A DNA stretch of 64,000 nt from Oscillatoriophycideae cyanobacterium NC_groundwater_1537_Pr4_S-0.65um_50_18. Lineage in GTDB: Bacteria > Cyanobacteriota > Cyanobacteriia > Elainellales > Elainellaceae. How positions within the stretch are numbered: position 1 is the first letter of the stretch; the number at the start of each line of letters is the position of its first letter. The notes under the pieces were generated by a model that was given only the letters and a program-made list of their open reading frames with translations, was not told where the DNA came from and ran no database searches. The stretch covers positions 744,001 through 808,000 of the forward strand of contig JACQYI010000006.1 in the NCBI GenBank assembly GCA_016208305.1, in the 5' to 3' direction. Position numbers and translations under genes: made by a program. This document shows positions 60,633 to 63,900 of the stretch, in pieces.

Positions 60633-61181
60633 ATGGCTATTTTAGATTCTAAAGGTCGTTTGTTTGGCAAAGTCAGCCTCCTAGATGTTGGGGCGGCACT
60701 CGTCATTTTACTGGTCGTAGGCGGACTATTTTTGCTGCCAGGTAGCTCTGGCTCCTCGATCGTGCAAACAGGTTCATCAACCAAACCGATCGAGGTGGAT
60801 GTGATTGTGCGAGGGCTAACCGTTGCTGAACCCCAAGCAATGCTAAAGGCGTTGGCAGAAGAAAAGAAAACCAACATTATTATTCGCAATCAGCCTTACG
60901 GGCAAGTTGACATTCTCAACGTCAAGTCGCTGCCGCGCACGGTGGCTGTACCTCAGCCCGATGGCTCAGTCAAGCCGCTCCCTGATCCCCGTCCAGAGTT
61001 AAATTACACCTTGGATATGGTTGTGACCTTAGGGGGCGATGCTGAAATTGTTGATGATGGCCCTGTCTTAGGCAACAACAAAATCAAGATTGGCACACCG
61101 ATGGAGCTAGAGGGGCAAACCTATCGCTTTAATGCACCTGTGATTGGGGTGCGTATTTTAGATCAGGCTAAGGCGGGCTAA
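60633..61181 (+). CDS. DUF4330 membrane protein
   Basis: A 182-aa protein with an N-terminal DSKGRLFGKVSLLDVGAALVILLVVGGLFLL, one membrane helix at about 17-36, and a beta-rich domain of about 140 residues. This matches DUF4330, a cyanobacterial family of unknown function. A single helix with a large extracytoplasmic domain is predicted. Confidence 0.88.
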   Translation: MAILDSKGRLFGKVSLLDVGAALVILLVVGGLFLLPGSSGSSIVQTGSSTKPIEVDVIVRGLTVAEPQAMLKALAEEKKTNIIIRNQPYGQVDILNVKSLPRTVAVPQPDGSVKPLPDPRPELNYTLDMVVTLGGDAEIVDDGPVLGNNKIKIGTPMELEGQTYRFNAPVIGVRILDQAKAG

Positions 61182-61289: not shown

Positions 61290-63839
61290 ATGGAAAAGAG
61301 CGATCGCATCCAGTGGCTGCGGCAGAACACGCCATTTACAGCCCTGTCAGAGCAGGTATTAGAGGCTTTAGCCTCTGCCATCCAAAGCAGAACTCTTGAG
61401 GAAAATCGCCGCTTAATTTTAGAAGATACTCCGCCTACTGCGCTGCATATTCTGAGATCGGGTCGGCTGGAAGCCTATCACACCAGTGCTAACGAGCTGG
61501 CGAATGCCAGCAGCTTGTTGCCTGGATCGGTACTGCACCTCAAAGAGCTATTGCTCGATCAACCGACGCAGCAAACCATCATCACCCTGAGTGATTGCGA
61601 GCTGTGGGAAATTCCACGTCAGGAATTTGTGGCGATCGCTGAGCAATATCCTGAGATTAGCCGCACCTTTTCCCAGCAGCTTGTGGCAGAGCTAGAGCAA
61701 ATGTCTCAACAGCTGGCCTTTGAGCAAGAGCGACAGACAGCCTTGCGCCCTTACCTCATGCCCAAAGTCAGGCAGGGGGTCGTCGGCTCTAGCCGCTATG
61801 CGGTCAGGCTGCGGCAAGATATTCGCAAGGCATCGGGCGATCGTCAGCCTGTGTTGATCTTTGGCGAACCAGGACTAGGTAAAGATAATATTGCAGCCCT
61901 AATTCACTTTGGATCGAATGACCGCAAGCAGCCCTTAATCAAAATCAACTGTGACACCCTACAGGCCAACGGTGCAGAGCTGTTTGGGCGATCGGGCGGC
62001 AAATCAGGGCTGCTGGACTGGTTGGGAACAGGCACGCTCATGCTCAACAACGCTCAAGATTTGCCCAAAGATCTGGAGGGCAAAATGCAGCAGGTGTTAG
62101 CTACTGGCGAGTATTTACCTGTGAGCCGAGAAGGGGCGGCAGAGCCAGAGATGAAGCGATCGCAAGCCCGTATCATCATGACGGCTGAGCGAAATCTGCC
62201 CGAAGCTTTGAACTGCAAAAAGCTGAAGCCTCACGTCATTCGAGTCCCGCCCTTGCGCGTCACCAAAGCCGATATTGCAGCCCAAGTGACCTACTACATT
62301 AGCCTCTTCTGTCGCGGCAAAGGACTGCCTCAGCCTACGGTTTCACCCGAAGCGCTACGCCGCTTGCAGGGCTACGATTTTCCGGGCAATCTGGCAGAAC
62401 TAGAGAGTTTGGTAGAACGTGCCATTATCCAATCCAACGGTACGCCTGTCCTGACTGAAGAGGTGTTTTGGTCTACGAGCAGCAAAGGTAGGCGCTTTCG
62501 GCTGAATTTACTCAACGCCTACCCCCAGCTCCGTCAGTTTTTGCGCGGCCCCTGGTGGACTGACCGGATTAACTACGGCTTTACCTCGTGGTTTTTTGCG
62601 ATCGTCCTAGCCATCCTGTTTTGGGGGCCTCAAAGCCGCGATGCCAACATTGCCCTCAATTTCTTTTGGGCTTGGTGGTGGCTGTTGGTTTTGGTGGCCT
62701 TTCCATTTGTCGGGCGGCTCTGGTGCTCAGTTTGCCCCTTTATGATCTATGGCGAGCTGGCGCAGAAATTCTCGCTCAAACTGTTTCCGCGTCAGTTGTT
62801 GCCTTGGCCGCGACAGCAGGCCGAACGCTGGGGCGGCTGGTTTCTATATGGTTTGTTTGCCCTGATTTTGCTGTGGGAAGAACTCTGGCATCTCGAAAAC
62901 ACCGCCTATCTGTCGGCTTGTTTGCTGTTGCTGATTACGGCAGGAGCCATGATTTTTTCAGTGTTGTTTGAGCGTCGCTTTTGGTGTCGCTATCTCTGCC
63001 CGATTGGCGGCATGAACGGTATGTTTGGCAAGCTGGCCATGATCGAGCTACGCGCTCAGCAGGGCATTTGCGCCGCTTCTTGCACGACCTATCAGTGCTA
63101 CAAGGGTGGGCCGCAAAAAGGCGAAGGCATGGAAACAGGCGGCTGTCCGGTTTATTCCCATCCCGCTCAGCTTCAAGACAACCGCGACTGCGTTTTGTGC
63201 ATGACTTGTCTCAAGGCTTGCCCCCATCGATCGGTCGAGCTAAACCTGCGCCCACCCGGCATTGAACTCTGGACAACCCACACGCCTGCCCTGCCGGAAG
63301 TCGCCTTACTGTTTCTGCTTTTAGGGGCTGTGTTTCTGCATCATCTGCCAGAAATCGCCTCGCAGTGGGGATGGGCGATCGCTTTTGACCACTCAACCTT
63401 GAGTAACTTTGGCCTCCATCTGGGTGCTTCTACTCTGGCGCTTTTGCTGCCAGGGGCAATGGCATTGCTGGTTCATCAGATTCTGCGCGCCTTAAGCCGC
63501 AGCGCTGCTAAGGCGCTAAGCTTCGAGGTCTTGGCCTATGGCTACTTGCCGCTGGTGCTAGGAGCCAATGTCGCCCATTACTTGCATCTGGGCCTAACCG
63601 AAATGGGGCGAGTGGCACCTGTGACTTTGGCAACCCTTGGCATGAGTGGCATGGCGGCTCCAGCGATCGTGGCAGATGCCGCCGTGATTGCTTTCCTCCA
63701 GGGAGTAACTTTGATCGCGACGGCTTTCCTTAGCGTTGTGTTAACCCAAAAGATTGCGCGTCAGCCCTGGCGATCGCTCTTGCCGCAGCATCTTGCCATT
63801 CTGGGATTTACAGTGCTGCTGTGGCGCGTGATTCTCTGA
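61290..63839 (+). CDS. CNB - degenerate AAA+ - NapH-type Fe-S membrane fusion protein
   Basis: An 849-aa protein. Residues about 15-130 are a cyclic-nucleotide-binding beta-roll (NRRLILEDTPPTALHILRSGRLEAYH). Residues about 165-390 align with the sigma54-activator AAA+ domain: Walker A GEPGLGKD at 192-199, but GTLMLNNAQDLP has Asn-Asn where Walker B needs Asp-Glu, and there is no GAFTGA loop. From about 430 the protein is membrane-bound: CSVCP (479, 482), WCRYLCPIGG (566, 570), Cys 594, 598, 603, then CVLCMTCLKACP (634-644), a [4Fe-4S] site, and six more helices. It looks like a NapH/NosR-type electron-transfer membrane protein. AGGAGA precedes the ATG. Confidence 0.9.
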   Translation: MEKSDRIQWLRQNTPFTALSEQVLEALASAIQSRTLEENRRLILEDTPPTALHILRSGRLEAYHTSANELANASSLLPGSVLHLKELLLDQPTQQTIITLSDCELWEIPRQEFVAIAEQYPEISRTFSQQLVAELEQMSQQLAFEQERQTALRPYLMPKVRQGVVGSSRYAVRLRQDIRKASGDRQPVLIFGEPGLGKDNIAALIHFGSNDRKQPLIKINCDTLQANGAELFGRSGGKSGLLDWLGTGTLMLNNAQDLPKDLEGKMQQVLATGEYLPVSREGAAEPEMKRSQARIIMTAERNLPEALNCKKLKPHVIRVPPLRVTKADIAAQVTYYISLFCRGKGLPQPTVSPEALRRLQGYDFPGNLAELESLVERAIIQSNGTPVLTEEVFWSTSSKGRRFRLNLLNAYPQLRQFLRGPWWTDRINYGFTSWFFAIVLAILFWGPQSRDANIALNFFWAWWWLLVLVAFPFVGRLWCSVCPFMIYGELAQKFSLKLFPRQLLPWPRQQAERWGGWFLYGLFALILLWEELWHLENTAYLSACLLLLITAGAMIFSVLFERRFWCRYLCPIGGMNGMFGKLAMIELRAQQGICAASCTTYQCYKGGPQKGEGMETGGCPVYSHPAQLQDNRDCVLCMTCLKACPHRSVELNLRPPGIELWTTHTPALPEVALLFLLLGAVFLHHLPEIASQWGWAIAFDHSTLSNFGLHLGASTLALLLPGAMALLVHQILRALSRSAAKALSFEVLAYGYLPLVLGANVAHYLHLGLTEMGRVAPVTLATLGMSGMAAPAIVADAAVIAFLQGVTLIATAFLSVVLTQKIARQPWRSLLPQHLAILGFTVLLWRVIL

Positions 63840-63847
63840 AGGTCACA

Positions 63848-63900
63848 AAATAGTTTTTTAGAAGTGCCGCGCGGAGCGCGGCACTTCTAAAAAACTATTT
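63848..63900. terminator. perfect 25-bp palindrome with GGA loop
   Basis: Arms at 63848-63872 and 63876-63900 are fully complementary around GGA. The stem contains AGAAGTGC/GCACTTCT and the apex GCGC-GGA-GCGC shared with 14292-14332. It follows the fusion gene's stop by 9 bp and is probably its terminator. Confidence 0.88.

Follow-up and report, generated by a model that had tools for sequence, protein, structure and literature searches.

A cyanobacterial fusion of CRP-like, degenerate AAA+ and membrane iron-sulfur domains as a candidate redox protein

The subject of this analysis is a gene at positions 61290-63839 (+ strand) of a 64,000-nucleotide stretch of DNA, referred to here as the window, from Oscillatoriophycideae cyanobacterium NC_groundwater_1537_Pr4_S-0.65um_50_18 (GenBank assembly GCA_016208305.1, contig JACQYI010000006.1, positions 744,001 to 808,000). 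A single uninterrupted ATG frame encodes an 849-residue protein in which three parts are fused, namely a CRP-like domain, an AAA+ domain of the sigma54-activator type with its lid, and a 450-residue, nine-helix membrane iron-sulfur module. The protein is probably a redox protein and not a gene switch, because its regulator half looks dead, its iron-sulfur half is extremely conserved, and a sister subfamily (B) lies beside genes associated with sulfide and low oxygen. The account favoured here, that of a membrane redox protein that would work much as NapH and NosR do, carries a non-hydrolysing AAA+ platform and does not act as a transcription factor, is put forward as one that could equally well prove right or wrong. 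The features on which the argument draws are as follows.

61290..63839, +: the fusion gene (849 residues; CRP-like, pseudo-AAA+, membrane iron-sulfur), a member of subfamily A; AlphaFold2 model with a mean predicted local distance difference test score (pLDDT) of 85.7
61389..61649, +: CRP-like domain (cNMP_binding), residues 34-120, with a degenerate phosphate-binding cassette; Pfam PF00027, 50.3 bits, cut-off 27.5
61782..62228, +: AAA+ core of the bacterial enhancer-binding protein (bEBP) type, residues 165-313, lacking GAFTGA and the arginine-finger segment; PF00158, 61.2 bits, cut-off 20.2
61863..61886, +: Walker A motif GEPGLGKD, residues 192-199, intact in the window copy
62034..62051, +: degenerate Walker B motif TLMLNN, residues 249-254
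62265..62462, +: AAA+ lid (AAA_lid_14), residues 326-391; PF25601, 40 bits, cut-off 27
62547..63269, +: four-helix membrane core with predicted cytosolic iron-sulfur loop, residues 420-660, the best-conserved part; from conservation, TIGR02163 and models
62724..62738, +: CX2CP motif, C479/C482, invariant in 110/110 rows
62985..63002, +: CX3CP motif, C566/C570, invariant in 110/110 rows
63069..63146, +: first ferredoxin-like Cys group, C594, C598, C603 and C619, in 110/110 rows; model pLDDT below 50 here
63189..63224, +: second ferredoxin-like Cys group, CX2CX2CX3CP, C634-C644; Cys in 109/110 rows, one row gapped
63270..63836, +: five more predicted membrane helices, residues 661-849; from models, and aligned in a stand-alone Deinococcus protein too

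The soluble part of the AlphaFold2 model adopts the bEBP fold, with NtrX, NtrC1, FlrC, DmpR, NifA and PspF as its best matches in the PDB (Foldseek E-values of ~1e-12 to 1e-10). In the second half the model shows nine long hydrophobic helices, and the Pfam family Fer4_5 is matched here (46 bits, cut-off 22). All of the Cys groups would be placed on the AAA+ side of the membrane in this model; the predicted topology rests on the helix count, because the charge pattern is weak.

The state of the regulator half was assessed in an alignment of 110 relatives, among them 83 rows of subfamily A and 21 of subfamily B. Counts given from this alignment refer to rows and not to independent genomes, since some pairs look like the same genome, at least two such pairs being included (L002/L040 and the overlapping L027/L122). 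The sequence-only reading had held that the GAFTGA loop is absent and that the acidic pair of Walker B is replaced by Asn-Asn, and both observations are borne out across the family. No row of the 110 matches GAF[TSEP]G, and the window's Walker B motif reads Leu-N253-N254, with N253 present in 82/83 and N254 in 80/83 of the subfamily A rows. Asp often occupies the first Walker B position in subfamily B and in a form seen in the Cyanobiaceae, and the motif in the 21 subfamily B rows is mostly Asp-Asn or Ser-Asn; the second position (254) is Asp or Glu in 0/110 rows. The segment that carries the arginine finger in PspF is shortened to 19-23 residues in all rows, and the arginine-finger motif was found in 0/110; subfamily B has FR.DL strings, which in the five rows where they were mapped correspond to residue 403, beyond the AAA+ core. 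The P-loop is more variable. It is intact in the window protein (GEPGLGKD), and its third Gly and Lys are kept in all subfamily B rows; subfamily A retains the G, K and D positions, but the third Gly is replaced by Glu, Asp or Asn in 63/83 rows.

The CRP-like domain is similarly altered. The phosphate-binding cassette of CRP comprises Gly-Glu and Arg residues, at the positions of which the window protein has Gly-Ser and Gln; in subfamily A, G[ED] is kept in 5/75 rows and R[STACQ] likewise in 5/75. The domain is wholly absent in the Cyanobiaceae and Pseudanabaena members. Control of the window copy by cAMP was considered and judged unlikely, the phosphate cassette being degenerate. The earlier proposal of ligand-gated or nucleotide-sensing control is accordingly weak: nucleotide sensing is not favoured for subfamily A because the CRP-like pocket lacks its phosphate-binding residues and the third P-loop Gly is mostly lost, though not in the window copy, and some members have no CRP-like domain at all. 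No helix-turn-helix (HTH) domain was matched in the window protein by Pfam at E<=1, and membrane helices occupy the place where an HTH would lie. The regulator half is thus without the parts by which it would work, and has been so since ancient times.

A sigma54 partner was looked for also. The window's genome, which is 98.5% complete, contains no match to PF04552 (rpoN) at E<=0.001, so that a real sigma54 partner is rejected there, and 1/146 genomes of the phylum has a match above the family cut-off. In another cyanobacterium, a 202-residue open reading frame (L125, 1459-2067, - strand; G125:C1) matches the sigma54 DNA-binding domain above cut-off (62 bits); a full rpoN gene is not in view at this locus. 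Francke et al. report neither sigma54 nor its activators in 29 cyanobacteria (PMC3162934), and a 2025 survey describes rpoN as rare in cyanobacteria, with two exceptions (PMC12316311). The absence of GAFTGA, of the arginine-finger segment, of an HTH and of an rpoN match upholds the view that the protein is not a sigma54 regulator. The misleading automatic label is corrected as a result for a family present in ~98/386 sampled genomes (subfamily A and the Cyanobiaceae form), plus those with subfamily B.

The membrane half presents the opposite picture as regards conservation. Twelve core Cys (479, 482, 566, 570, 594, 598, 603, 619, 634, 637, 640 and 644) are invariant in the 110 rows, one row being gapped at the last four; eleven had been counted in the single sequence. 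The eight that lie beyond the CXnCP motifs could hold two [4Fe-4S] clusters. Within subfamily A, majority-residue conservation falls from 0.87 in the core with its iron-sulfur loop to 0.70 in the AAA+ core and 0.57 in the CRP-like domain, and the core within subfamily B also scores 0.87. The same gradient separates the two paralogues of the window's genome, of which the subfamily B copy (G000:C7:32480-35185, 902 residues) is 41% identical to the window protein: the core is 61% identical, the lid 39%, the last five helices 34%, the AAA+ core 31% and the CRP-like domain 21%. The nearest curated family is NapH/MauN (TIGR02163), which matches residues 74-252 of the C-terminal half with 56.5 bits, the cut-off being 213, and a weak match to the NosR profile (20.7 bits) was reported for paralogue B. 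The assignment to a NapH-like multi-helix iron-sulfur module is supported in this respect. No flavin mononucleotide (FMN)-binding domain was matched in the window protein by Pfam at E<=1. Heme binding in the extra helices was considered, but the conserved His residues there are only scattered. Comparison of the membrane half with solved structures gave a best E-value of 0.07 by sequence profile and 0.72 by Foldseek, and a best Z-score of 5.7 by VIA-align, the latter on helical bundles; the missing structure match is uninformative and provides no evidence of a new fold.

Homologues of the membrane half exist as proteins in their own right. A '4Fe-4S binding protein' of 452 residues encoded on Deinococcus ficus plasmid pDFI1 (WP_027463891.1) is 31% identical over 448 alignment columns, aligning across the whole 450-residue membrane half with the Cys groups included, and has no CRP-like or AAA+ part. 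Haloarchaeal plasmids encode '4Fe-4S binding proteins' with weaker similarity across the core, the one inspected being 452 residues long. Because the stand-alone D. ficus homologue is full length, the membrane module would seem to work elsewhere without the front half, and the existence of stand-alone homologues therefore suggests that the fusion put a front of the sigma54-activator type onto a pre-existing membrane redox unit. No phage matches were found, and IMG/VR returned four weak matches (30%) to the iron-sulfur core only.

The spread of the family was examined in a sample of 386 genomes of the phylum, with a match threshold of E<=1e-20. Matches were obtained in 105 genomes, of which 78 were assigned to subfamily A (fragments included) and 20 to the Cyanobiaceae form, which is without the CRP-like domain, on a row-by-row reading. 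Subfamily B was present in 11 genomes, five of which, including the window's genome, also have subfamily A, and six of which have B alone; the remaining match (G106) belongs to a genuine activator of the sigma54 type. Synechococcus PCC 7117, a relative of PCC 7002, carries a subfamily A copy. In two Cyanobiaceae genomes (G257:C1:2174909-2176571 and G342:C8:7224-9154), the AAA+ and membrane iron-sulfur parts lie in two overlapping frames, representing either frameshifts or a natural split. Trees were calculated separately for the AAA+ and membrane parts (51 rows each), and in both trees subfamily B and the Cyanobiaceae form each make up one group with 100/100 support, the agreement expected if both halves travelled together after one fusion event. 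The ratio of nonsynonymous to synonymous substitution rates (dN/dS), from five sequence pairs, is 0.013-0.048 for the membrane core and 0.016-0.20 for all other measurable domain comparisons, four comparisons being unmeasurable owing to saturated dS. Since dN/dS is low in every measurable domain, these values indicate a stable pseudo-AAA+ protein and not decay. No row of the 110 shows a GAFTGA motif or an intact Walker B, either of which would have marked the window copy as decayed; the three-domain fusion first read from one sequence is a conserved architecture. It would constitute a clear instance of an AAA+ activator stripped of all catalytic features, yet retained by selection within a redox protein. 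Each of the parts is of a known kind, whereas no description of the combination, its spread or the context of subfamily B was found in the open literature searched, outside which most subscription journals fall.

The genome context of subfamily B, which the sequence-only reading did not touch on, is newly found here. When loci with at least 400 bases of downstream sequence were compared, a cysK gene was located downstream on the same strand in 17/26 subfamily B loci versus 0/58 subfamily A loci (Fisher p=1e-11), the gap between B and cysK ranging from an overlap of a few bases to 42 bases in most and from 110 to 535 bases in the rest. Among 29 subfamily B loci, many of which are on contigs that end short, the counts are cysK 17, ArsR 7, rhodanese types 7 and 8, sulfide:quinone reductase (SQR) 6, MBL 6, PetC 6, CydA 5 and PsbA 4. 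Matches above NCBIfam cut-offs in these neighbourhoods include cysteine synthase A (423 bits), ArsR-type regulators, an alternative PetC and AcsF, whereas those to SQR, cytochrome bd (cydAB) and MBL/persulfide-dioxygenase-like proteins fall below cut-off. SQR is present in 5/11 B genomes compared with 35/375 others (p=0.003, kinship ignored); the window's own genome has B and no such SQR. Its subfamily B locus (L165, G000:C7:24001-44000) also has no cysK nearby, an ArsP-type permease, a small thioredoxin-like gene and psbA being present instead. In an Acaryochloris genome (L106), the genes for B, cysK and ArsR adjoin acsF and heme oxygenase genes. Under micro-oxia, AM1_0465 and AM1_0466 of A. 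marina, which are acsF and heme oxygenase genes and neighbours by locus number, are described as rising by more than 5 log2 units (PMC5295598), and pdo, rhod, tauE and cysK2 of Synechococcus PCC 7002 as induced by polysulfide (PMC12466478).

Subfamily B is also carried on plasmids. On one from Aulosira laxa NIES-50, which is conjugative by PLSDB typing, and one from Pseudanabaena galeata, B is followed directly by a cysteine synthase gene, with petC and psbA copies within the same 21-kb stretch (L181 and L182), and the B proteins are 76% and 75% identical, respectively, to the subfamily B copy of the window's genome. The association of B and cysK with alternative petC and psbA genes suggests a mobile module for photosynthesis under sulfide or low oxygen. 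A second P. galeata plasmid (NZ_CP112876.1, 26970-27368) has a partial B-like AAA+ piece, 69% identical over 133 residues and labelled as a sigma 54-interacting transcriptional regulator.

According to the favoured account, the C-terminal 450 residues would be the working part of the protein, comprising a four-helix NapH/NosR-like core, a cytosolic loop for two [4Fe-4S] clusters and five further helices, and its most likely task is electron exchange linking (plasto)quinone with a partner located in the cytosol or the membrane. The CRP-like and AAA+ domains, derived from sigma54-activator stock, would no longer have what is needed to contact sigma54, to catalyse across subunits and to hydrolyse ATP. 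Their most likely role is that of a platform without ATP hydrolysis, on which the protein oligomerises or binds partners and through which the membrane part is tuned in its activity or in its choice of partner. Subfamily B, with its intact P-loop, would work in a sulfide/low-oxygen module beside cysteine synthase, and subfamily A would be the stand-alone, widespread version. A number of observations weigh against this account. The soluble domains too are under purifying selection, which suits a sensor or regulator equally, and the ArsR-bearing operon context of B suits a signalling protein as well. Since the membrane half has no match among solved structures, its fold and quinone site lack proof; its first Cys motif has the form CX2CP, unlike the CX3CP of NapH and NosR, and the iron-sulfur loop (residues 592-635) has pLDDT values below 50 in the AlphaFold2 model. 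Finally, no general conserved neighbour, partner or substrate was evident for subfamily A among 62 loci (one of which, L104, turned out to be B) and seven loci of the Cyanobiaceae form, with flanks of up to ~6 kb.

The neighbours that subfamily A loci do share, a glycosyltransferase, RNase III and DUF4330 genes, are shared locally and track close kinship. The gene just upstream in the window (60633-61181, + strand) encodes a DUF4330 protein (PF14221, 212 bits), a pairing limited to close relatives. Suspected metal-uptake neighbours (Fur, Zn ABC and CobW) were scattered over a few loci. At L120 (G264:C1:2320000-2332000), a Cyanobiaceae copy that lacks the CRP-like domain has an ArsR gene and acsF in its vicinity, a low-oxygen setting met elsewhere in this analysis with subfamily B only.

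The strongest competing explanation, which is nevertheless considered unlikely, is that of a membrane-tethered redox sensor, in which the state of the iron-sulfur clusters or quinone is relayed via the AAA+ half to a sigma70-type polymerase, or in which a transcription factor is sequestered. The bEBP ancestry of the AAA+ half is in keeping with this, as is the description of GAFTGA-deviant homologues that depend on sigma70 (PMC3162934). Deviant relatives such as TyrR, DhaR and HupR act without sigma54. The genes for ArsR and inducible stress proteins that adjoin subfamily B could be read in the same way. However, TyrR, DhaR and HupR retain a DNA-binding domain, and neither an HTH nor any other such domain was detected in the window protein; the arginine-finger segment and Walker B Glu are likewise absent, and the membrane core is conserved far above the soluble half. 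Less probable again is a maturation or assembly factor, in which another enzyme is built with electrons or sulfur from the iron-sulfur unit (in the case of B, one that acts in sulfur assimilation alongside CysK) and the pseudo-AAA+ domain is a chaperone-like client platform. The tight spacing of cysK in most of the B loci that have it would fit, and there are precedents in the activation of NosZ by NosR and the recruitment of NapF and NapG by NapH (PMC5928378), but the client is not known, subfamily A has neither cysK nor another conserved neighbour, and the B locus of the window's genome has no cysK nearby.

An active ATP-driven machine, in which another residue stands in for the Walker B Glu and ATP turnover powers uphill electron transfer, is regarded as distinctly improbable: the good P-loop of the window copy and the third Gly and Lys kept throughout subfamily B would permit it, but the replacement of that Gly in most subfamily A rows, the uniformly non-acidic second Walker B position and the loss of the arginine-finger segment from all rows do not. 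A decayed or misassembled sigma54 regulator, as automatic labels such as 'nitrogen assimilation regulatory protein' and 'sigma 54-interacting transcriptional regulator' might imply, is rejected as scarcely credible in view of the identical architecture in open frames across many genomes, the grouping of B and of the Cyanobiaceae form in the trees of both halves, and dN/dS values that are low throughout.

An extension of the redox protein account may be ventured, tentatively, and with the expectation that it is more apt to fail than to hold. Cyanobacteria, nearly all of which lack sigma54, may have repurposed the sigma54-activator ring as a non-hydrolysing membrane redox switch, the NapH-like unit of which reads or taps plastoquinone while the pseudo-AAA+/CRP-like cap relays the outcome, with a version specialised for sulfide and low oxygen (B) and a general one (A) that a quarter of the genomes sampled from the phylum possess. 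If true, subfamily B would be specialised for conditions where oxygenic photosynthesis yields to anoxygenic electron flow. The family offers a testable handle on how cyanobacteria link the redox state of their membranes with responses to sulfide and low oxygen, a question with a bearing on anoxygenic photosynthesis.

Directly 3' of the gene is a perfect inverted repeat (63848-63900) with 25-base arms and a 3-base loop. The arm is matched with up to two mismatches at nine places in the genome, two of which are these arms themselves, the reversed control giving none. The repeat looks like a small dispersed palindromic element, which may double as a terminator.

With respect to known systems, subfamily B sits among genes of the kind found in cyanobacterial sqr/arsR clusters and micro-oxic psbA/petC clusters (PMC5061849, PMC5295598), whereas subfamily A does not; the passages on those clusters in the two papers do not mention a protein of the window type. 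The AAA+ core and lid fold are held in common with sigma54 activators (PspF, NtrC1 and NifA) and with the GAFTGA-deviant proteins TyrR, DhaR, HupR and VpsR, but compared with sigma54 activators the window protein has no GAFTGA, arginine-finger segment, Walker B Glu or HTH, and has a membrane iron-sulfur half instead. The D. ficus protein matches that half over its full length, differing in the absence of the CRP-like and AAA+ front. NapH/MauN proteins share with the window protein four membrane helices, Cys-Cys-Pro motifs at helix ends and ferredoxin-like Cys groups thereafter; the window protein differs in scoring far under the family cut-off, in having one CX3CP (566-571) and one CX2CP (479-483) where the NapH/NosR-type module has two CX3CP motifs, and in its five extra helices and fusion behind CRP-like and AAA+ domains. 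The membrane flavo-iron-sulfur proteins NosR/NirI and RdhC (PceC and CprC) similarly have a membrane module with two Cys-Pro motifs; unlike NosR and RdhC, the window protein has no FMN-binding Pfam match, and its soluble half is of a cytosolic CRP/AAA+ type. NosR, NirI and RdhC also provide a precedent for the favoured account, having first been described as regulators before their assignment shifted towards electron transfer (PMC5928378).

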